The notes under the pieces were generated by a model. It was not told the origin of the DNA. It saw nothing but the letters and a program-made list of their open reading frames with translations, and did no database searches. From assembly GCA_016218975.1 (NCBI GenBank), contig JACRCO010000098.1, forward strand, positions 1 through 59,841: 59,841 nt of DNA, in the 5' to 3' direction. The position numbers were made by a program, and so were the translations under genes. Below are positions 11,979 to 30,185 of the stretch, piece after piece (positions within the stretch are counted from its first letter, which is position 1; each line of letters opens with the position of its first letter). The DNA comes from Deltaproteobacteria bacterium. Lineage in GTDB: Bacteria > Desulfobacterota > Deferrimicrobia > Deferrimicrobiales > Deferrimicrobiaceae.

Positions 11979-12040
11979 CAGTGCAATGGCAGGGCCGGAC
12001 GGATACGGATTCCGGGACAGTCGACAAAAGGAGACAAGTA

Positions 12041-13534
12041 ATGAAAAGAAAATGGTCCGCAACACTGGCGTCAACCCTTTTAGCGCTCCTTGTGGCATTG
12101 CCGGGAGCATCTCTCGCCGCGGAACCCGCACCGGAAGCGAAGAAATCGACCTTCGACTGGCTGACGATCGGAGGAGATTACCGATTCCGGGCGGATTCCC
12201 TTAACGGGAAAATGCCGACGTTTTTCAACTTCTTCGATCCTTCGTACCAGGCGTTCCTCGGAGGCGGGCCGGCGCCTTCCCCGACCGCGGGGGCGGATGT
12301 CAAGAACGAGACCCTCTACACCAACCGGTTCGGGCTGAACCTCAAGGCGAAGGCGTCGCAAAACGTGTCGGCCTCCGCCCGTCTCGTCATGTTCAAGACA
12401 TTCGGCTCGCAGGACGACAGCGCGGTTTCGGGACTGCGCAGCGCGAGCGGGACGATCCAGCCGTTCTTCGCCGACCGTGTCGGCGTGTTCGACGGAACCA
12501 CGGGCCACATCCCCGCCGACGGAAAGGTCTTCGTCGACTACGCGTATGTGACGATCAACAACATCTTCGATCAGCCGATCTGGTTCTCCGTCGGGAGACG
12601 TCCATCGACGGGTGGGATCCCGAGCCACCTTCGGCAGAACAACGAGAAACCGGGGAACGCGGGCATCCCCGCCTTGCTTGTGGATTACGCCTTCGACGGG
12701 GCGACCCTCGGATACGCGCCCGACATCGAGGCGCTCCCGGGAGCTTACGCGAAGCTCTGCTACGGAAGGGCATTCGAAAACGGCTTTACGCTGGATTCGG
12801 GGAACGGCCTCCGCGATACGGACATGATCGGCGTCTCGCTGGTTCCCTACGACACTGACCGGCTCTACATGAACCTGCAGTGGAACCGCGGCATGAATAT
12901 CTTCAACTCGCCGGTCATCAAGAGCAACACCGTCTTCGGAAATACCCAGCCCTCCGTCGATCTGGGAGACATCGACTGGTTCGGGTTGACCCTGCTAAGC
13001 ACGATGAAGAAGGTCGGACCGGGGACGCTGAACATCTTCGGAAGCGGGGCGCTCGACAAGACCCATCCCAACGGAAAGACGGTCATCCTGTCTAACGGCT
13101 TCGACACGGGCGCAGGCCTCATGTTCACGGGGCGCAGCGAATCGACGACCGGCTGGGCAGCCCACATCGGGGGCCGATACGACATCACGGCCACCCGGAC
13201 GAAGATCGGGGCGGAATACAATCACGGCTCAAAAAACTGGATATCTTTCGTTCCGGCGGGGGACGACATATGGACCAGCAAGCTGGGCGCCCGCGGGAAC
13301 GTCTACGAAATCTACCTGATACAGGAACTGAACGAGAAAGCGGTTTCTTCGCACATCGCGAAGACTTTCCTGCGCGTCGGCTACCAGTACTACGACTTCA
13401 CCCACACTGGAAGCAACAACTGGGTAGGCGCCCCGGTCAAGATGTCGGAGCTTGTCAACGCCGCGAACGCGCAGATGCTGGTGCCTGTCGAGAAGGCGAC
13501 GGATTTCTACGCGACGGTTGAAGTGAAGTTCTGA
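12041..13534 (+). CDS. Outer-membrane beta-barrel porin of a cytochrome conduit (DUF3373/ExtI-like)
   Basis: 497 residues. A signal peptide (MKRKWSATLASTLLALLV to SLAA) is followed by a protein made almost wholly of amphipathic strands with aromatic girdles, ending VEVKF with the C-terminal Phe of outer-membrane barrels. WLTIGGDYRFRADSLNGK near residue 40 and repeated GLNLKAK, WFSVGRRPS and VGYQYYDF strands support a large barrel. ATG 12041 has AAAGGAGA upstream and lies downstream of the sigma-54 promoter. It is first of a four-gene operon with two octaheme cytochromes, so it probably forms the trans-membrane sheath or channel of an electron-transfer or oxyanion-uptake complex. The similarity to Geobacter ExtI is my recollection of gene order and type, not a search result. 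Confidence 0.8.
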   Translation: MKRKWSATLASTLLALLVALPGASLAAEPAPEAKKSTFDWLTIGGDYRFRADSLNGKMPTFFNFFDPSYQAFLGGGPAPSPTAGADVKNETLYTNRFGLNLKAKASQNVSASARLVMFKTFGSQDDSAVSGLRSASGTIQPFFADRVGVFDGTTGHIPADGKVFVDYAYVTINNIFDQPIWFSVGRRPSTGGIPSHLRQNNEKPGNAGIPALLVDYAFDGATLGYAPDIEALPGAYAKLCYGRAFENGFTLDSGNGLRDTDMIGVSLVPYDTDRLYMNLQWNRGMNIFNSPVIKSNTVFGNTQPSVDLGDIDWFGLTLLSTMKKVGPGTLNIFGSGALDKTHPNGKTVILSNGFDTGAGLMFTGRSESTTGWAAHIGGRYDITATRTKIGAEYNHGSKNWISFVPAGDDIWTSKLGARGNVYEIYLIQELNEKAVSSHIAKTFLRVGYQYYDFTHTGSNNWVGAPVKMSELVNAANAQMLVPVEKATDFYATVEVKF

Positions 13535-13556
13535 GTTCGAAGGAATGGAGGCTCAC

Positions 13557-13883
13557 ATGAAACGGTTCGCGATCGTGTTCGTTATGCTCGCATGCGTCGC
13601 CGCGGGGGGACTCTTTCCGGCCGGTGCGGCTGCCGACGGTGAAATCAAGTTGGTCGGCGTTATTTCCGCGATCGATATCGCCGGACAGGACGCCGCCTCG
13701 GCAACGGTGACGCTCAAGGACAACAAGACCGATGCGGCGGTCACAGTCGTCGTCACCGACGACCTTACGCTGGACAAGTTCAAGGACCACCGCATCGTCG
13801 TCGGGGACGAGATCAGGCTCAAGTACGAATCGAAAGACGGGAAGAACCTCAGCAGGTATTTCCGTAAGACGGCGGGCTGCTGA
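13557..13883 (+). CDS. Small periplasmic protein of the porin-cytochrome operon (ExtJ-like position)
   Basis: 108 residues. ATG 13557 follows GGAGG at 5 nt; the in-frame ATG at 13545 has no ribosome site. A signal peptide (MKRFAIVFVMLACVAAGGLF to GAAA) precedes strands EIKLVGVISAIDIAGQD, SATVTLKDNKTDAAVTVVV and the turn HRIVVGDEIRLKYESKDGK, ending in a lone Cys (KTAGC). The fold pattern resembles that of the small exported protein at 6730. It lies 22 nt after the porin gene and before the cytochromes; small periplasmic proteins occupy this place in some Geobacter conduit clusters. It is likely a structural or assembly partner, function unknown. Confidence 0.78.
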   Translation: MKRFAIVFVMLACVAAGGLFPAGAAADGEIKLVGVISAIDIAGQDAASATVTLKDNKTDAAVTVVVTDDLTLDKFKDHRIVVGDEIRLKYESKDGKNLSRYFRKTAGC

Positions 13884-13969: not shown

Positions 13970-15337
13970 GTGAAGCGTTATTCGATCGTTTTGTCTTTGT
14001 TGGCATGCGCATGTTCCGCCGCCTGGGGGGCGGAACACCCCGGCAGGGCCTATCTGGAGAAGAACGGATACAAGGGCCCTTCGACGTGCGAAACGCAGGG
14101 GTGCCACCCCGGAACCGCACGGTCGTTCCTCGACACCGTGCACTGGAAACATTCCTCCAGGGTTACGAACGTGGACGGGACGGACCCCCGGGCCGAGTAC
14201 GGGATGAAGAACCGCATATACACGATGTGCAACGGGAACGACATCGTTAACGACCTGAAGGAAACCCCGCCGAATACGAAAACCGGCAAGACGAAATTTA
14301 CCGGATGCAACACTTGCCACCCCGGCAACCATACAAGCGACGTGGGGAGCACGGGAAAGGACGCGGAGAACGCGGTCGATTGCCTGGTATGCCATTCATC
14401 GTCATACGATTACCGCCTCCGCAAGCCGTACAGGGACGAGAAGGGCAGGATCGTCATGGGACAGGACCGCAGCGTGAAAGCCGCCCTCGCGGTCGGCAAG
14501 CCCGGCGTCAAGAACTGCATGGTATGCCACGAATCGGCTGGAGGAGGCGTCCTCCTGAAACGCGGATTCGCTTTCACGCGCGAGAACGATGTCCATGCGG
14601 CCAAGGGTATGGTCTGCGTCGACTGCCATGCCGCGAAGGACCATAGAATCCCGACCGGGTACGACCCTAACAACTGGGCGAACGACGGTATCCGCGTTTC
14701 CTGTTCGGGCTGCCACGGAGAGACGCCCCACAAGGACGGCGACATCGATCGCCACACCGGAAGGATCGCCTGCCAGACATGCCACATAACCAGAACCGGC
14801 GGCGCGGCGGCGAAAGACTTTACCCGGTGGACACAGGGGGCGGACGGCTTTTTCGAACCGACAACCCTCCGCATGGAAGCGAACGAGACGACGCCGGTGT
14901 ACGCCTGGTACAACCGCACCGTCGCAAACACGCCCGGGTTCATCGGGCCCAAGGGAACCCGTGCGGACGCAGCAAGCCGCATCCATCCTTTCAAGATATA
15001 CGAAGGCAAGGCTTACTTCGACCGGAAGACCGGCAGCCTTCTTTCGATGGATTTCGCCCCGCCGATGGCGACGGGCGACACGCTGGCGGGAGTCGCCTCC
15101 GCCGCGAAGACCCTCGGTATCCGGGAATACGACCCCGTCCCGGGCTGGCAGACGATCTACTTCGGGAGCAGCCACCTCGTGACACGGAGCAAGGCGCTCA
15201 CATGCGCGAACTGCCACGCCCCGAACGGCGTATTGAACTTCGCCGCTCTTGGATACACCGCGGAGGAGGTCCGCAAACTGACCTCCGCCGGGATCTACTT
15301 CGAGAAGATGACCGCGAAACAGAAGGAGGAGTGGTAA
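13970..15337 (+). CDS. Octaheme c-type cytochrome (first of tandem pair)
   Basis: 455 residues. Starts at GTG 13970 with GGGAGGGAA just upstream. A signal peptide (MKRYSIVLSLLACACSAAWG) exports it to the periplasm or beyond. Heme sites in order are one CX4CH (CETQGCH, C40-H46) and seven CXXCH (CNTCH, CLVCH, CMVCH, CVDCH, CSGCH, CQTCH, CANCH), giving eight hemes. Cys87 (RIYTMCNGND) is not in a heme motif. The signature RHTGRIACQTCHI is shared with the next gene, so the two are paralogues. It probably carries electrons through or across the outer membrane with the upstream porin. Substrate unknown; an oxyanion- or metal-reducing conduit is inferred from context only. Confidence 0.9.
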   Translation: MKRYSIVLSLLACACSAAWGAEHPGRAYLEKNGYKGPSTCETQGCHPGTARSFLDTVHWKHSSRVTNVDGTDPRAEYGMKNRIYTMCNGNDIVNDLKETPPNTKTGKTKFTGCNTCHPGNHTSDVGSTGKDAENAVDCLVCHSSSYDYRLRKPYRDEKGRIVMGQDRSVKAALAVGKPGVKNCMVCHESAGGGVLLKRGFAFTRENDVHAAKGMVCVDCHAAKDHRIPTGYDPNNWANDGIRVSCSGCHGETPHKDGDIDRHTGRIACQTCHITRTGGAAAKDFTRWTQGADGFFEPTTLRMEANETTPVYAWYNRTVANTPGFIGPKGTRADAASRIHPFKIYEGKAYFDRKTGSLLSMDFAPPMATGDTLAGVASAAKTLGIREYDPVPGWQTIYFGSSHLVTRSKALTCANCHAPNGVLNFAALGYTAEEVRKLTSAGIYFEKMTAKQKEEW

Positions 15338-15359
15338 AAACCCCGAAAGGAGGAGAGAG

Positions 15360-16706
15360 ATGAGAAAGATCTTCGTTGCAGCGGGCATCATGCTGGCCAT
15401 GTCGCTGTCGGGCGGCACGGCCGACGCGGCGGGGCCTTCCCACGCCGGGTACGTCAAAACGTTCGAGGGGCCGCGCACCTGCACGGCGGCTTCATGCCAC
15501 CCGGACGCCGCGAAAGAGGTGGCGGAAAGCCTCCATTATCAACAACGGGCGGTGCCGCAGTTTCTGGAAGGCTGGGAATCGGGAAAACTTGCGGGAATGA
15601 CGGAGACGTATTGAGCGCCGCCCAATACGGTAGCGGGGCATAACTGGATCGGAATTCTCCAGTCCAGGGATGCCTCTAAGCCGGCGCAGCCAGGTGGCTG
15701 CGCTCTTTGCCACGCGGGACTCGGCGCGAAGCCCAATCCTGTCGGAAAGTTGACTGAAGCGGATTACGACAACATCGATTGCCTTTTGTGCCACGCCCCG
15801 GGCTACAAGCGTACGGTTACGAAGGACGGAAACAAATTCCGCATCGTCCCGGACCCGTCGATCGATATCCTTAAAGCGGCGCAGTCGGTCGGAAAACCGA
15901 CGAACGATATTTGCCTTCGGTGCCACGCGGGCGCCGGCGGTGGGCCGAACCACAAGCACGGCGTCACCCCGACGAGGGAGAGCGACGTGCATGTGGCCAG
16001 GGGAATGCTGTGCGTCGATTGCCATTGCACCGAAAAACACAGGATACCCGGAGGCGCGGACATCAAGGCGCAGGAGCTAACGGACATTAAAACCGCCTGC
16101 GAGAACTGCCACTCCTCACCGCACGAGGGGGAGCAGGCGAAAGAGCTGAACCGGCACACGGCCCGGATCGCCTGCCAGACTTGTCACATCCCCTCGATAG
16201 CACGGGATTCGAAGATGCCCACGATCGTCGAGCGCGACTGGACGAAACCCGTCCTTAACGAAAAAACCGGGCTCTTCGGTCCGACGAACAGGACGGCGGG
16301 CAATGTGCGACCGGAGTACGCATGGTGGAACCGTTACATGAAAGTGCCGCCGGAGCCCGTGGGGTCCATCGGCGATCCGAAGGCGAAAATCTACCCGTGG
16401 AAACGGACGGATTACACCGTGATCGGCGACGCGGCGACCGGCAAGCCGGTCTTCATCAAGTCCGGCGCCTATGCCGTAACCGGAGACCCCGGGGCTGCCG
16501 CGAAAAAGGGGGCGGAGGACTCGAAGCAGAACTACAGCGGAACATGGAAAGGGATAAAGGAGACGATGGTGTTCTCGTTGAACCACCAGGTCGCTCCGAA
16601 ATCCGAGGCGCTTTCTTGCGCATCCTGCCATGGCCCGAAAGGCGTGCTGGATTTCCGCAAACTCGGGTACGGCGACGAGAAGATCGGGAAACTGATCGGC
16701 AGGTAA
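15360..16706 (+). CDS. Octaheme c-type cytochrome with in-frame TGA (possible selenocysteine)
   Basis: Read through TGA 15612-15614, this is one 448-codon frame. Ribosome site AAAGGAGGAGAG precedes the ATG, and a signal peptide runs to about residue 24. Heme sites are CX4CH (CTAASCH, C41-H47), then CALCH, CLLCH, CLRCH, CVDCH, CENCH, CQTCH and CASCH after the TGA. The order, the RHTARIACQTCHIP signature and DVHVARGMLCVDCH match the upstream paralogue. The TGA is codon 85, 38 residues after the first heme His; Cys87 of the paralogue lies 41 after its own, and both follow a GM-x4-6 stretch. Sec at a Cys site is therefore plausible. A nonsense mutation or sequencing error would also give this, leaving an 84-residue stub with no second start of its own. 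Confidence 0.8.
15643..15663 (+). other. Weak SECIS candidate in the second octaheme cytochrome
   Basis: ACTGGA (15643-15648) pairs perfectly with TCCAGT (15658-15663) around the loop TCGGAATTC. The loop starts 35 nt after the TGA, near the far limit for bacterial SECIS elements, and its first two bases are not G. A shorter alternative, CCGC/GCGG at 15618-15636, lies nearer. Neither is convincing alone. Confidence 0.2.
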
Positions 16707-21770: not shown

Positions 21771-22316
21771 ATGCGCGGCGGCAGGTTCGCAACTCTTCTC
21801 CCCCTGATCCTCTCGCTTTCCATTCTCCCCGCATTCACGCCGGAAATATTCCCTGCGGACGCTGCCGCCCCGCTTCAAGGAGACCCCGATCGCGGACGCG
21901 GCCTTTTCACCGGCGAGCTCCGGTTCGCCGGCGGAGGGGCAGCCTGCATCGGCTGCCATTCCGTCGCCGGGATTCCCGGCGGCGGGGGCCTGCTGGGGCC
22001 GGACCTTTCCAAAACACATTCGGATTACGGCGCAGAAGGCATTGACGCGGCGCTTGCGGATCTGTCGTTTCCCACGATGAAGCCTTTGTACGCGAATCGC
22101 CCGCTTAGCCCAGCGGAAAGGGCGCACGTTGCCGAGTTTCTCAGGGCGTCCGGAAGCGCGCCGCCGGAAGATCCGCGGAGTCCGCATTCGCTTTCCGCGG
22201 CCGCCGGGTTCGCCGCCCTGCTGATCCTGCTTTTCGCGCTTGGAAGGGGCCGCCTGAAAGGGGTGCGGAGGCCGCTCGTCAACAGCCGGAAAGGAAGGGA
22301 AGGAGCCGCGAGATGA
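21771..22316 (+). CDS. Membrane-anchored monoheme cytochrome c of the nitrate reductase operon
   Basis: 181 residues. A signal peptide (residues 1 to about 30) precedes a periplasmic class-I-like cytochrome domain with one CIGCH site and the downstream Met-containing [17 protein letters not shown], where the Met may be the sixth ligand. A transmembrane helix ([15 protein letters not shown]) and a basic cytoplasmic tail close the protein. Ribosome site GGAGGG. Its stop overlaps the narG start (ATGA), so the two are coupled. It may feed electrons to or from the nitrate reductase, as a partner of the NarI cytochrome b. Confidence 0.88.
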
Positions 22317-25300
22317 GCTGGATCCGTGACCTTTTCGATCCGCGTGCGAGGAAGTGGGAGGAGTTCTACAGGAACCGCTGGCAGCACGACAAGGTCGTCC
22401 GCAGCACCCACGGGGTAAATTGCACCGGCGGCTGTTCCTGGATGGTCCACGTCAAGAACGGGATAGTCACGTGGGAGCTCCAGGCCACCGATTATCCGCA
22501 GCTGGCGGGAGACCTCCCGCCTTACGAACCGCGAGGATGTCAGCGCGGCATTTCCACGTCCTGGTACGTCTACAGCCCTCTTCGCGTCAAGTATCCTTAC
22601 ATGCGCGGCGCCCTGATGGATCTATGGAGGGAAGCGAAAAAAAGGCATTCGGATCCCGTTGAGGCGTGGACCTCGATCATGGAGGATGCCGACGGGCGGC
22701 GCCGGTACCAGCAGGCTCGCGGAAAGGGAGGGTTCCGCCGTTCTTCATGGGACGAGGCGCTCGAACTGATTTCCGCAAGCGCCATATATACGATCAAGAA
22801 GCACGGCCCCGACCGGATCATCGGTTTTTCGCCGATCCCCGCCATGTCCATGCTCAGCTATGCCGGCGGATCCCGGTTTCTCCAGCTTCTGGGCGGCGTG
22901 AGCATGAGCTTCTACGACTGGTACAGCGACCTGCCGAACGCCTCGCCGGAAACGTGGGGGGAGCAGACCGACGTCGCCGAAAGCGCAGATTGGTACAACA
23001 GCCGTTACATCGTGGTGATGGGCTCCAACCCGAGCATGACGCGGACGCCGGACGTGCATTTCGCAGCGGAGGCAAGGCACAACGGCACAAAGCTTGTCGT
23101 CATTTCACCCGATTTCAGCATGACCTCGAAGTACGCCGACTGGTGGATCCCCGCCCACGCGGGCCAGGACGGCGCGCTGTGGATGGCTGCCAACCACGTG
23201 ATCCTGTCCGAGTATCACGCGGCGAGAAGCGTTCCGTATTTCACCGACTACCTCAAGCGATATTCCGACGCCCCGTTCCTCGTCGTGGTCGACGAGGGCG
23301 GGTCCGCCGCAGGATCGTCCGGCGGAAACGGAGCAGGGGAATCGTGGCGGTTCCTCAGGGCGGGATGGCTGCCCCGGTACGGCGGCGTGGAGCACGGCGA
23401 ATGGAAGCCGGTGGTGTGGGACGAAACGTCCGGAGAGCCCCGATCTCCCCAAGGCAGCGTCGGTTACCGCTGGCAACAGGAGAATGGCCGCTGGAATCTG
23501 GAAATGAAGGACGGACAGGACGGCTCTCCCCTCTCCCCGGCGCTTACTTTTTTCGGGTCATCCGACGGAGTGCTCGAAATCGGGATTCCCGACTTCGCGG
23601 GCGGCAGCACGCTGCGGCGGGGGGTCCCGGTAAGGTACGTGGACACGGATCGGGGACGGCTGCCGGTGACCACCGTCTTCGATCTCCTGATGGCGCAGTT
23701 CGGCGTCGACCGCGGACTTCCCGGAGATTACCCCTCCGGATACGACGATTCCGGGAGTCCGTACACCCCCGCGTGGCAGGAGAAGTACACGGGGGTGGAC
23801 CGCAGCGCCCTGATCCGCTTCGCCCGCGAGTGGGCCGACACCGCGGAGAAGACCGAGGGGCGCTGCTCCATAATCATCGGCGCGGGGATCAACCACTGGT
23901 ACCACAACAACCTGATGTACCGGGCGGGGATGGTCGGGCTGATCCTCTGCGGATGCGTGGGGCGGAACGGCGGAGGTCTCAACCACTACGTCGGGCAGGA
24001 GAAGCTGGTTCCGATGGCGCCGTGGGCCGCGCTGGCCTTCGCGCTCGACTGGGGGAAGCCCCCGAGGCTGACGAACACGCCGTCGTTCCACTACGTCCAC
24101 TCAGACCAGTGGAGGTACGAGCGCGGCTTCGGGGAATATCAGCCGATGCCGTCCGGCGGCCCTTCCGCCGGAAACGGGAACGGCTCCGGCGCCTCGCTTA
24201 CCCGGGGGCACACGATGGACGTGCAGGCGCTGGCTGTCCGCATGGGATGGCTGCCGTTCTTCCCACAGTTCGACCGGAACCCGCTGGACGTCGTGCGCGA
24301 CGCGCAGAAGGATGGGGCGACGGACGACGCAGGGATCGTGCGATGGGCGGTGGAGCGCATAAAGGAGGGGAAACTCCGGTTCGCGGTGGAGGATCCCGAC
24401 GCCCCCGAAAACTGGCCGAGGCTCTGGCTCATCTGGCGGGGGAATGCGCTGATGTCCTCCGCCAAGGGCCATGAGTATTTCCTCAAGCACTACCTCGGCA
24501 CGCACCACAATGCCGTTGCGGAGGAGGTCGCGGAAGGCTCCGTCAACGAGGCAGTGTGGAGATCGCCCGCTCCGGAGGGGAAGCTCGACCTGGTCGTCGA
24601 CATCAATTTCAGGATGGACACCTCCGCGCTTTATTCGGACATCGTCCTTCCCACCGCGACCTGGTACGAGAAGAACGACCTTAACAGCACCGACCTGCAC
24701 TCCTTCATACACCCCCTGACCCAGGCGGTTCCCCCCTGCTGGGAGTCCAAAAGCGACTGGGACATTTTCAAGGCGATAGCGGAGAAGGTGAGCGGGCTGG
24801 CGGCTGTCCACCTGCCCGGCAAAGTTCGTGACCTGGTCGCAGTGCCGCTCCAGCACGACACTCCCGCCGAGCTCGCTCAGCCCCGCGTAAAGGACTGGAA
24901 ACGCGGCGAGTGCGAGGCGATTCCCGGGAAAACGATGCCCAACCTGGTCGTGGTCGAGCGCGACTATGCCGCCCTGCACCGCCGCTTCGTCTCGTTCGGG
25001 CCGCTGGCCCGCAGGGACGGGATCGGGGCGCACGGGATAGCCTGGTCGATAGAAGACGAATACGACGCGATGGCGGCGCTCGACTCCGCGGAAAGCTGGG
25101 AGGGGAAGCGGTACCCCACCATCGGCGACGCCGTGGATGCGGCTAACCTCATCCTGCGACTCGCCCCCGAGAGCAACGGAGAGATGGCTCACCGCGCCTT
25201 CAAGGCCGAGGAGAAGAAGGTGGGGCTACCGCTTGCGGATCTTGCCGAAGGATCGAGGGAGGTACGTTATACGTTCGACGACCTCGTCCGCCAGCCGAGA

Positions 25301-25990
25301 AGGGCGCTCACGACGCCGTGCTGGACCGGGATAACCAAGGGCGGCCGTGCCTACTCCGCATACTGCGTGAACGTCGAGCGGCTCGTCCCGTGGCGGACCT
25401 TCACGGGAAGACAGCACCTCTACCTCGACCACGAAGGGTACATCGCTTTCGGAGAGCACCTGCCGACATACAAGCCGAATCCGGACCCCCGCGCTATGGG
25501 CGATATAACGAAGAGCCGCCCCGAGGGGAAATCGATCCTGCTCAGCTACCTGACGCCGCACGGCAAGTGGCACATACATTCGACATTCTCCGACAACGAG
25601 CGGATGCTCACCCTCTCGCGCGGCTGCGAGCCGCTTTGGATGAACGACCGGGACGCCGCGGAAGCCGGGATCGCGGACAACGACTGGGTGGAGGCATACA
25701 ACGATCACGGCGTCGTGGTCACGCGGGCGGCGGCGACGGCCCGGCTTCCCAGGGGGATGTGCATGCTTTACCACTCCCCCGAGCGGACCGTCGGGGTACC
25801 TAAATCCCCGATCCGCGGAAACAGGAGGGGCGGCGGTCATAACAGCCTGATCCGGGCGCGCCTGAAACCGGTGCTCATGATGGGCGGGTACGCACAGTTC
25901 ACTTACGCTTTCAACTATTGGGGCCCCACGGGGGTCAACCGGGACACCCTGGTCTACGTCAGGAAACTCCCCGGCAAACCCTCCTGGTGA
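22313..25990 (+). CDS. narG: Respiratory nitrate reductase alpha subunit
   Basis: 1225 residues, full NarG length. The catalytic subunit binds Mo-bisMGD and one FeS cluster and reduces nitrate to nitrite. The N-terminal FS0 motif has His for the first Cys ([11 protein letters not shown], then PRGCQRG). The Mo-ligand Asp region is [18 protein letters not shown]. The C terminus has NRGGGHNSL and the molybdopterin dinucleotide-binding domain. There is no twin-arginine signal, which fits a cytoplasm-facing enzyme. Nitrite oxidoreductase alpha subunits are related, but the narJ, narI and narK neighbours favour nitrate respiration. Confidence 0.95.
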
Positions 25991-26016
25991 AAAATGCGGG
26001 TTAAGCGAGGGCCGGC

Positions 26017-27504
26017 ATGGATGTGAGAGCGCAGGTCGCGTCGGTATTCCACCTGGACAAGTGCATCGGCTGCCACACGTGCAGCATCGCGTGCAAGAAC
26101 GTCTGGACCGACAGGCGGGGCGCCGAGTACATGTGGTGGAACAACGTGGAATCGAAGCCTGGTACCGGCTACCCGACTCTGTGGGAGGACCAGGAGAAGT
26201 ACCGAGGCGGCTGGGAGAAGCGCGGGGCAGGACTCGATCTGCGTCTCCAGGGGAGGCTTTCCGGCCTTGCGAACCTTTTCTTCAACCCGTACCTGCCGTC
26301 GCTGGACGACTATTACGAGCCGTGGACCTACAGGTACCAGGACCTCTTCGGAGCGCCGCAGGGAGACGATCAGCCGACAGCGCGTCCGGTGTCCAGGATC
26401 ACGGGGAAACCGATCGACATCGAGGCGGGCCCCAACTGGGACGATGACCTGGGAGGCTCCCCCGTCTACGCCGAATCGGACCCGGGTCTCAAAAGGATGA
26501 GCGAGGCCGAGCGGCGCGAGATATTCGAGCTCGAACGGATCTTCTGCTTCTACCTCCCGCGGATCTGCAACCACTGCCTCAATCCCGCCTGCCTTGCAGC
26601 CTGCCCCGCAGGGGCGATCTACAAAAGGGGCGAGGATGGGATCGTGCTCGTGAACCAGGAGAAGTGCCGGGGCTGGCGCATGTGCATATCGGGGTGCCCT
26701 TACAAGAAGGTCTACTACAACTGGGAAAACGGGAAATCGGAGAAGTGCATTCTCTGCTACCCCCGTGTTGAGACCGGGCAGGCCCCCGCCTGCTTCCATT
26801 CCTGCGTCGGAAGGATCCGGTATCTCGGGGTCCTGCTCTACGACGCATCGCGGATCGAAGATACCGCGAAGGCGCAGGACGCGGATCTCGTTGAAGCGAT
26901 CCGGGGGATCATCCTCGATCCGTCCGACGGGAATGTGGTTTCGGCCGCGCGCAAGTGCTGCGTCCCCGAAGAGGTGATCGCCTCCGCGAAAAAATCTCCG
27001 GTCTACAGGTTCGTCAAGGAGTTCCGGATCGCCCTCCCGCTCCACCCGGAGTTCCGCACGCTGCCGATGCTCTACTACGTCCCGCCGCTCCTGCCGGTGC
27101 TCACCGCTGAGGGCGACGGATCGAGGAACATCGCGGAGGATCTCTTCGGCTCCCTTTCGAGGGCCAGAGTCCCGGTCCGCTACCTCGCCGGGATGCTGGC
27201 GGCGGGGAACGAGACGGTGGTTTCCGCTGCGCTGAAGAAACTGATCGCCGTCAGGATCCGGGCGAGGGCGAAGTCGGTGGGAGATGTGCCGGAGGAGGAT
27301 GTCCGGCGCGCGCTTGCGGAAGGCAGCCTGACTCCCGAGGAGGCCGAAGCGATTTTCCGGCTGACCGCGGTCTCCAAATACGACGAGCGGTTCGTCCCGC
27401 CCCCTTTCGCCGCCGACCGCGCGGCCGAGGAGGCCGGGGCCGGACCCGACATCGAGAGGGGACGCACCGGAGTCGGATTCCTCAAGAAATCGGGGAAGGA
27501 GTAG
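26017..27504 (+). CDS. narH: Respiratory nitrate reductase beta subunit
   Basis: 495 residues. This is the electron-transfer subunit with four FeS clusters between NarI and NarG. The clusters read CIGCHTCSIAC, CNHCLNPACLAACP, CRGWRMCISGCP and CILCYP with a later CFHSC. The Trp in CRGWRMC replaces a Cys, which gives the [3Fe-4S] centre of NarH. It follows narG by 26 nt and precedes narJ by 3 nt. The C-terminal 120 residues match the length of the family's extension. Confidence 0.95.
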   Translation: MDVRAQVASVFHLDKCIGCHTCSIACKNVWTDRRGAEYMWWNNVESKPGTGYPTLWEDQEKYRGGWEKRGAGLDLRLQGRLSGLANLFFNPYLPSLDDYYEPWTYRYQDLFGAPQGDDQPTARPVSRITGKPIDIEAGPNWDDDLGGSPVYAESDPGLKRMSEAERREIFELERIFCFYLPRICNHCLNPACLAACPAGAIYKRGEDGIVLVNQEKCRGWRMCISGCPYKKVYYNWENGKSEKCILCYPRVETGQAPACFHSCVGRIRYLGVLLYDASRIEDTAKAQDADLVEAIRGIILDPSDGNVVSAARKCCVPEEVIASAKKSPVYRFVKEFRIALPLHPEFRTLPMLYYVPPLLPVLTAEGDGSRNIAEDLFGSLSRARVPVRYLAGMLAAGNETVVSAALKKLIAVRIRARAKSVGDVPEEDVRRALAEGSLTPEEAEAIFRLTAVSKYDERFVPPPFAADRAAEEAGAGPDIERGRTGVGFLKKSGKE

Positions 27505-27507
27505 GCG

Positions 27508-28074
27508 ATGGAAGGCGGGAACCCGGACTGGAGGGTGCTGGGATTGTTCGCAGGGATGCTCGACTACCCCGGCGAGGCGCTGGCTCCGCTTGCGGAAGAG
27601 GCAGAGAAGGTACTGTCGGAGAACCGGCCGGAAGCGTCCTCCCTTCTGGCGGAATTTCGCGCATCGCTGCGCGACACTTCGCCGGCCCGGATGGAGGAGA
27701 TCTACACCGCAACTTTCGATCTGCAGGCTGCATGCTGTCCTTACATAGGCGTTCACCTTTTCGGCGAGGGACACAAGCGGCGCATCTTCCTCGCGCGGCT
27801 GAACGACATGTACGGAGATTACAGGTTCCGCGCCGCCGGTGAACTGCCGGACCACCTGGCATCGGTCCTTCGCTTTCTCGCGGATTCGGCATGGGGCGAC
27901 GACGCCAGGGCACTGCGCGAGGACGGGCTTCTCCCCGCCCTGGAAAAGATGGCGGAGGCATTCCCGGAAGGGTCCGCCAACCCGTACGGGAAATTATTGG
28001 GTGCGCTTCGAATCGCGCTTCGCCCCGGGATGCCCGTGAAGGAAACGCCGCCTGTTCCCGGTAGGGAGGTCTGA
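27508..28074 (+). CDS. narJ: Nitrate reductase assembly chaperone
   Basis: 188 residues, all-helical TorD/DmsD-like protein. NarJ binds apo-NarG and guides molybdenum cofactor insertion and membrane attachment; it is not part of the final enzyme. LGLFAGMLDYPGEALAPLAE near the N terminus, YTATFDLQAACCPYIGVHLF and the LPDHLASVLRFLAD motif are typical. Position between narH and narI supports the call. Confidence 0.92.
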   Translation: MEGGNPDWRVLGLFAGMLDYPGEALAPLAEEAEKVLSENRPEASSLLAEFRASLRDTSPARMEEIYTATFDLQAACCPYIGVHLFGEGHKRRIFLARLNDMYGDYRFRAAGELPDHLASVLRFLADSAWGDDARALREDGLLPALEKMAEAFPEGSANPYGKLLGALRIALRPGMPVKETPPVPGREV

Positions 28075-28078
28075 GGCG

Positions 28079-28771
28079 ATGTCCGAAATCTTCCTGTACG
28101 TCGTTTTTCCGTACGCAGCCTTCCTGCTTGCGATCGCCGTCGGTATCTACAGGTACCGGTCGGACCGTTTCTCCTTCACGAGCCGGTCGTCCCAGTTCCT
28201 CGAAGACCGGCTCCTTTTCTTCGGATCGATTTCATGGCATTACGCGATAGGCATCATACTGGCTGCCCACATCCTCGCCGCGATCTTCCCGGAAAGCTGG
28301 GCCGCGCTGCTCGGCTCGCCGCTGCGGCTGCTTATACTCGAAGGGACAGGGCTCGCGCTCGGCGTCGCGGCGACAGCCGGGATCGCAGCCTTCGCGCTGC
28401 GCAGGATCTTCGACGCAAGAATCGCCGCGACGACGGAGACGATGGACTGGATCGTCCTCGCAACGCTACTGTTCCAGACAGGATCGGGAGTGTACGTGGC
28501 GTGGAAGTACCGCTTCGGGGCTGCGTGGTATCTCCACACCGCGGTCCCGTGGCTGTGGTCCCTCGCGCGCCTTTCGCCGGAGCCGGCCTACGTGACCGTC
28601 CTGCCGCTCGCCGCGAAGCTCCACCTGCTGAACGCGTTCTTCCTCGTCGCATTGCTCCCCTTCACACGCCTTGTCCACCTGTTCTCGATCCCGGTTTCCT
28701 ACGCATGGCGTCCCAATTTGCTCTTCCGATGGAACCGCAAGGGGCCGTACCTCTCCGGAGACGGAAGATAA
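28079..28771 (+). CDS. narI: Nitrate reductase gamma subunit (cytochrome b)
   Basis: 230 residues with five hydrophobic helices. It takes electrons from quinol at the periplasmic side and passes them through two b hemes to NarH. SISWHYAIGIILAAHILA holds two His ten residues apart, as in the distal and proximal heme ligands of E. coli NarI; further His occur in WYLHTAVPW and KLHLLNAFF. It starts 4 nt after narJ. The loop KYRFGAAWYLHTAVPWLWSL lies between helices four and five. Confidence 0.94.
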   Translation: MSEIFLYVVFPYAAFLLAIAVGIYRYRSDRFSFTSRSSQFLEDRLLFFGSISWHYAIGIILAAHILAAIFPESWAALLGSPLRLLILEGTGLALGVAATAGIAAFALRRIFDARIAATTETMDWIVLATLLFQTGSGVYVAWKYRFGAAWYLHTAVPWLWSLARLSPEPAYVTVLPLAAKLHLLNAFFLVALLPFTRLVHLFSIPVSYAWRPNLLFRWNRKGPYLSGDGR

Positions 28772-28793
28772 CGGAAGATAAAGGAGGAAGCGC

Positions 28794-30185
28794 ATGCAGA
28801 ACGATAACCCGCAACCTTCCCCGCTTGCGGGAAACCTGGAAGGAGTCGCACGCAGGCCTCCCTCTTCGACCTGGCTGGACCGATGGGAGCCCGAGGACGA
28901 GCGGTTCTGGAAAACCGGGGGAGAGCGGATCGCGTGGCGTACTCTCGCCATAACTACAAGCGCACTGGTCCTCTCCTTCGCAACATGGTTCATGATGAGC
29001 GCCATTGTCGTACGCCTTCCGCAGGTCGGTTTCCGTTATTCCACGATGGAGCTTTTCTGGCTCGCGGCCATGCCGGGACTGGCGGGAGGCTCCCTGCGGG
29101 TCGTTCACACGTTTCTCATACCTATCTTCGGCACCAGGCACGTCGTAACCGTTTCGACGTTGCTCAAGCTGATCCCGTGCATCGGGATCGGCATCGCCGT
29201 CATGAACCCGGAAACGCCCTTCTGGCTATTCATGGTGTTGGCGCTGCTCGCGGGATTCGGCGCCGGCGATTTCTCCTCGCACATGCCGAGCACCAGCGTG
29301 TTCTTCCCCAAGCGACTGCAGGGGACCGCGCTCGGAATCCAGGCGGGCGTCGGCAACTTCGGCGTGAGCCTTGCCCAGTTCGTTTCTCCCTGGATCATCG
29401 GTTTCGCCGCCGTCGGCACATCGCAGACGCTGGTAAAGGGCGGAGCTTCCACACAGGTCTGGCTGCAGAACGCCGCGCTCTGGTACGTGCCGCTTCTACT
29501 TGTCCTCGCCGCATTGGGATGGGTATCGCTGAGAAGCGTCCCCGTGATGGCGTCGTTCCGGGAGCAACTCGACATCTTCGGCAACAAGCACACGTGGTTC
29601 TGCACGATTACTTATCTTATGACCTTCGGATCGTTCTCCGGGTTTTCCGCGGCGTTTCCGCTCCTGATCAAAATCCTGTACGGGGATTTCCCCGGCGCCC
29701 CCGATCCGCTGGCCTACGCTTTCCTCGGTCCCCTCGCCGGATCGCTCGCGCGCACATGCACGGGGCCCATCGCCGACAAGGTCGGCGGTGCGATACTTAC
29801 TCACGTCGTCGGGATCGGCCTGATCCTCTGCGTGGGCGTCTTGGCATTCACCGGACTGCTGGCTCCCGCTTCACTTGCCCAATTCCCCTGGTTCGTAGCC
29901 GTGATGCTGTTGATCTTCCTGCTCACGGGAGTGGGGAACGCGTCCACGTTCCGCCAATATCCGATCATATTTTCCCATTCGCCGCGGCAGGGCGCGGGAG
30001 TGATCGGGTGGACGGCGGCCGTCGCTGCATACGGCCCGTTCATCTTCGCAACCTTGATCGGAACGGTGATAACGCGGTTCGGCTCGCCGATTCCTTTCTT
30101 CCTCGGGCTCGGCGCATTCTTCGTCCTGGCCGTCGCGATCAACTGGTGGTATTACACGCGCAAGGGTTGCGAAAAACCGAGCTGA
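28794..30185 (+). CDS. narK: Nitrate/nitrite transporter (MFS, NarK family)
   Basis: 463 residues with twelve predicted helices. A hydrophilic head of about 45 residues precedes helix one (TLAITTSALVLSFATWFMM). The nitrate-signature segments are GFGAGDFSSHMPSTSVFFP in the first half and LTGVGNASTFRQYPIIFS in the second, with an Arg in RLPQVGF and another in the second signature for anion binding. It lies 22 nt after narI with GGAGGAAGC as ribosome site, so it is last of the nar operon. It could import nitrate with protons or exchange nitrate for nitrite. Confidence 0.93.
   Translation: MQNDNPQPSPLAGNLEGVARRPPSSTWLDRWEPEDERFWKTGGERIAWRTLAITTSALVLSFATWFMMSAIVVRLPQVGFRYSTMELFWLAAMPGLAGGSLRVVHTFLIPIFGTRHVVTVSTLLKLIPCIGIGIAVMNPETPFWLFMVLALLAGFGAGDFSSHMPSTSVFFPKRLQGTALGIQAGVGNFGVSLAQFVSPWIIGFAAVGTSQTLVKGGASTQVWLQNAALWYVPLLLVLAALGWVSLRSVPVMASFREQLDIFGNKHTWFCTITYLMTFGSFSGFSAAFPLLIKILYGDFPGAPDPLAYAFLGPLAGSLARTCTGPIADKVGGAILTHVVGIGLILCVGVLAFTGLLAPASLAQFPWFVAVMLLIFLLTGVGNASTFRQYPIIFSHSPRQGAGVIGWTAAVAAYGPFIFATLIGTVITRFGSPIPFFLGLGAFFVLAVAINWWYYTRKGCEKPS

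Follow-up and report, generated by a model that had tools for sequence, protein, structure and literature searches.

A divergent OTR-type octaheme cytochrome gene with an in-frame TGA, very probably read as selenocysteine

The octaheme gene pair and its surroundings

The DNA analysed here, referred to as the window, is a stretch of 59,841 nucleotides (contig JACRCO010000098.1, assembly GCA_016218975.1) from a bacterium of the Deferrimicrobiaceae. Its forward strand carries two neighbouring octaheme cytochrome genes, the second of which contains an in-frame TGA and is called the Sec gene below. The features of this pair are as follows.

13970..15337, + strand: octaheme paralogue in tandem with the Sec gene, bearing Cys87 (codon 14228-14230) at the Sec position; the two proteins are 32% identical
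15348..15354, + strand: AGGAGGA, ribosome-binding site of the Sec gene as judged by sequence, 5 nt 5' of the ATG
15360..16706, + strand: putative Sec-containing octaheme c-type cytochrome gene of a divergent OTR subfamily, 448 codons plus TAA
15480..15500, + strand: heme motif 1, CTAASCH (CX4CH), 5' of the TGA
15612..15614, + strand: in-frame TGA, codon 85, very probably read as Sec; aligned with Cys64 of Shewanella OTR (1sp3)
15646..15657, + strand: weak candidate SECIS hairpin GGAU[CGGA]AUUC, spacing 35, conserved in three close sequences
15699..15713, + strand: heme motif 2, CALCH; the OTR counterpart is RCTSCH, directly past Cys64
15780..15794, + strand: heme motif 3, CLLCH
15912..15926, + strand: heme motif 4, CLRCH
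15954..15956, + strand: codon of the invariant Lys199, equivalent to Lys153 of OTR
16011..16025, + strand: heme motif 5, CVDCH
16098..16112, + strand: heme motif 6, CENCH
16173..16187, + strand: heme motif 7, CQTCH
16617..16631, + strand: heme motif 8, CASCH

An earlier note on this DNA had described a single 448-codon frame broken only by the TGA, with intact heme motifs on either side, and translation of 15360-16706 bears this out. The frame runs from ATG 15360 to TAA 16704-16706, and TGA 15612-15614 is its sole in-frame stop. One heme motif, of the CX4CH type (residues 41-47), precedes the TGA, and seven CXXCH motifs follow it at residues 114, 141, 185, 218, 247, 272, and 420. The N-terminus resembles an export signal, as judged by eye only, and the earliest in-frame start 3' of the TGA is TTG 15750. 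The stop codon of the upstream paralogue is separated from the ATG of the Sec gene by 22 nt. The same note had placed a non-heme cysteine of the paralogue opposite the TGA, and the alignment agrees, pairing Cys87 with codon 85.

The gene pair is preceded by a gene for a small exported protein (13545-13883) and, directly 5' of that, by a gene for a DUF3373 protein (11981-13534, 472 bits), possibly an outer-membrane barrel. Together with the two octaheme genes, they look like one operon. Approximately 6 kb downstream of the pair, at 22313-30185, lie narG, narH, narI, and a gene for an MFS (NarK-like) transporter. In the relative G019, which belongs to another genus of the same family, the Sec gene occurs alone, without the tandem paralogue.

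The Cys64 column in the OTR family

The only significant structural match of the window protein is Shewanella oneidensis OTR (PDB 1sp3; Foldseek E 1.2e-23, approximately 28% identity in the structural alignment). Both are eight-heme proteins, homologous over their full length (phmmer E 5e-40), and both have the Lys153 equivalent and a single non-heme Cys or Sec ahead of the second heme motif. The window protein differs from OTR in having Sec where OTR has Cys64, in a first heme motif of the CX4CH instead of the CXXCH type, and in a longer loop from Sec to the next heme motif. The position was assigned by counting along the alignment of 1sp3 with a Sec-form relative from genome G094, in which the TGA meets the cysteine of INNFC, that is, Cys64. 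This residue does not bind heme and lies about 10 residues before the second heme motif of OTR; no text on it was found in the open-access literature searched. Lys153 of OTR is said to have been described by Mowat and co-workers in 2004 as an unusual ligand of the active-site heme. Its counterpart in the window protein, K199, is invariant in a 53-sequence alignment, and the equivalent lysine is found in 120 of the 123 rows of a larger alignment, the other rows being fragments or off-family sequences.

A TIGR04315 search over 395 genomes of the phylum yielded 32 TGA-interrupted genes of the family in 31 genomes, or 33 genes when a groundwater MAG named Desulfomonile tiedjei (L001) is included. 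In an alignment of 120 OTR-like octahemes including 1sp3, in which each U was masked as X so that the alignment was blind to Sec, every one of the 33 in-frame TGAs falls in the Cys64 column. The remainder of this column consists of 85 Cys, one Thr, and one Ala. Homologues thus carry Cys or TGA at the site and not random residues, a check that the earlier note had named. The aligned members with neither Cys nor Sec, bearing Thr and Ala, are those from G307 (L159) and G111 (L161). A further OTR-like gene (L058 / L176, G068:C15) contains one internal TAG; its site Cys is intact, and the TAG falls at another place in the gene.

The family tree was computed without the Cys64 column. Mapping the Sec/Cys label on it requires five changes, at least four of which are forced by well supported branches, and a topology holding all Sec genes as a single clade is rejected (p-AU 3e-62). 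The window gene, the L001 gene, and the G019 gene form a clade of the three sequences known, which groups with 31 Cys sequences, away from every other Sec gene. Being a quick tree with long branches, it does not fix exactly where the three-sequence clade belongs, but there is no such doubt that this clade stands apart from the other Sec genes. As far as the sequences tell, the exchange of Sec and Cys in the window clade was a separate event, and several others took place in the rest of the family; the count of changes gives no direction.

Decoding of the TGA and competing explanations

The L001 gene has TGA at the same codon at 78% identity, as does the G019 gene at 69% identity, which was the only further close relative found in the 26 genomes of the class that were searched. 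Downstream of the TGA, dN and dS for the three sequence pairs are 0.12 and 0.73, 0.19 and 1.02, and 0.17 and 1.40. These values show that the 3' part is translated and under purifying selection, which acts on either side of the TGA.

As for the machinery, the earlier note had pointed to selA, selB, selC, and selD, and all are present: the source genome has a tRNA-Sec with anticodon TCA (74 bits) and encodes SelA, SelB, and SelD. Its SelD gene and a formate-dehydrogenase-type gene each have one in-frame TGA. The presence of tRNA-Sec was also considered as a correlate of the Sec forms across genomes, but with matches in 54 of 58 genomes it is uninformative. Genomes G134 and G188 have Sec genes but gave no tRNA-Sec match, perhaps owing to draft genomes and strict search filters.

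Bacterial SECIS elements are described by rules for the loop (3-9 nt, with G at the first two positions), the stem (4-16 bp), and the spacing (16-37 nt), and some bacterial selenoprotein genes lie outside this model (PMC13188914). Outside the window clade, 27 of 30 Sec genes have the hairpin CUGGUGC[AGGU]GCACCAG or a slight variant of it at spacing 24, and the other three (L091, L092, L119) have GCAACGA[GGC]UCGUUGC at spacing 20. These hairpins fit the rules. For the Cys genes taken together, no such fit is seen (Mann-Whitney p 8e-14); neither hairpin was found in the Cys genes, a few of which have other strong chance hairpins. In the window clade, GGAU[CGGA]AUUC is the only conserved hairpin that fits the rules, and it is not above chance: of 411 other codon positions, 45 equal or better it. 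A hairpin search, RNAalifold on the three sequences, and the comparison across codon positions gave no convincing SECIS above chance in this clade, and it is here that the Sec reading is weakest.

In most Sec-OTRs (L070, L087, L121, and others), the SECIS lies within the codons for N-W-C-R-C-T-S-C-H, so that an additional Cys is encoded two positions ahead of the heme motif. In the Cys forms shown, this place is occupied by P or S. The RNA element may therefore dictate a residue of the protein. The three genes with the second SECIS solution encode NEA and not NWC.

Four other explanations of the TGA have to be weighed against decoding as Sec. A pseudogene, in which a nonsense mutation has ended the gene and the remainder is decaying, would look the same in a single genome, with one TGA in an otherwise normal gene, and the window gene has no strong SECIS. 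However, the same TGA codon is kept in three species at 69-78% identity and falls exactly in the Cys column, no other stops or frameshifts are present, and dN/dS downstream of the TGA lies between 0.12 and 0.18. A decaying gene is consequently highly improbable. An assembly or sequencing error could have produced the TGA from TGC or TGT, the codons for Cys; TGC differs from TGA by one base, and the draft genome consists of 100 contigs. A read error is nevertheless very unlikely, with a probability close to nil, because the two independent assemblies of L001 and G019 have the same TGA; moreover, 30 more family members have TGA in this column.

It may also be supposed that UGA encodes another amino acid under a reassigned code, or that it is passed by programmed readthrough without selenium, and the window clade does lack a clear SECIS. 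Neighbour genes end in TGA (13532-13534, 13881-13883), where it acts as an ordinary stop, and the code is therefore not reassigned. In addition, the genome has the complete Sec system, and the residue found in relatives at the site is not Trp or Gly but Cys, with which Sec usually exchanges, so that this alternative is very improbable. The last possibility is that two proteins are made, namely an 84-residue monoheme fragment and a heptaheme protein with its own start, for which TTG 15750 and an in-frame GTG past the TGA in G019 are available. These starts are not common to the relatives, however, the GTG of G019 being GTA in the window. The second part would also lack the export signal needed for c-type heme attachment, and the hemes on either side of the TGA form one OTR fold. 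Separate translation thus has next to no probability. Decoding as selenocysteine is the preferred reading, and the whole explanation, an exported OTR-type octaheme with UGA 85 read as Sec, a probable role of this residue in the active site, and separate Sec/Cys exchanges in the family, is considered very probable.

Probable role of Sec85 and comparison with related proteins

In the proposed mechanism, UGA codon 85 would be decoded as Sec by the SelA/SelB/SelC/SelD system of the cell. Sec85 is probably located in the active site, next to the heme that would have K199 as its iron ligand, although the loop formed by residues 64-94 around it has low confidence in the AlphaFold model. Its selenolate could attack or hold the substrate, as a nucleophile or an anchor, and the eight hemes would supply the electrons. 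Candidate substrates include tetrathionate or another compound of the S-S or S-O type, as well as nitrite or hydroxylamine. The earlier note had allowed for either heme ligation or catalysis by Sec. A catalytic role beside the active-site heme is the likelier of the two, being more economical because the site corresponds to the non-heme-binding Cys64, about 10 residues before heme motif 2.

A chemical parallel is provided by the thiosulfate/tetrathionate enzyme TsdA, in which a Cys ligand at the active-site heme is catalytic and forms a covalent S-thiosulfonate (PMC4423706). The resemblance to Sec85 would be one of chemical analogy, not of homology. For OTR itself, reduction of tetrathionate, nitrite, and hydroxylamine has been reported, as cited in PMC6449678 and PMC5276818. 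A role as nitrite reductase, considered on account of the nearby narGHI, is not required because the source genome also has an NrfA-family gene, and this candidate is accordingly weakened.

A broader proposal is offered tentatively, and its prospects are somewhat below even. It is possible that a Lys-ligated heme and a Sec selenolate form a heme-selenium catalytic pair, which selection would have installed several times among the octaheme reductases of the phylum. The window clade would then be an independent instance, perhaps with a different signal for Sec. That Cys and Sec have been exchanged repeatedly at a single site, probably next to the active-site heme, points to the catalytic residue of a family about whose mechanism little is known. 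The natural Sec/Cys pairs of the family offer a means to test the role of selenium in a multiheme reductase. There is also a consequence for annotation: gene callers that take TGA as a stop split such a gene into a fragment of 84 residues and a heptaheme protein without its N-terminal part, and it stays hidden in standard annotation.

A 2026 review lists the TIGR04315 octaheme c-type cytochrome among selenoprotein families, as annotated in GenBank (WP_331457571.1), and no discussion of its Sec site was found there (PMC13188914). The TIGR04315 Sec forms and the window protein have an identical Sec/Cys column and are homologous over the whole length; the window protein, in contrast, falls in a different clade, and its gene does not have the CUGGUGC[AGGU]GCACCAG SECIS. 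Its TIGR04315 score, 198.8 bits, is below the cut-off of 375, and its close relatives score 195.6 and 199.4. Judged from these comparisons, the window gene is a member of a divergent OTR-like subfamily, apparently with its own acquisition of Sec. Within the open-access literature searched, three points seem to be new: a divergent subfamily with Sec, the assignment of Sec to the Cys64 position of OTR, and the repeated exchange. ExtKL (NF040886, PMC13188914) is likewise a Sec-containing multiheme cytochrome but of a different family, and the window protein gives no match to NF040886 at E 0.001. The tandem paralogue group, recognised by the motif YTMCNGN, resembles the Sec protein in its fold family, in the conserved Lys, and, in the window copy, in the CX4CH first motif. 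It differs in having Cys at the site in all members seen, 13 of 13 in the tree.
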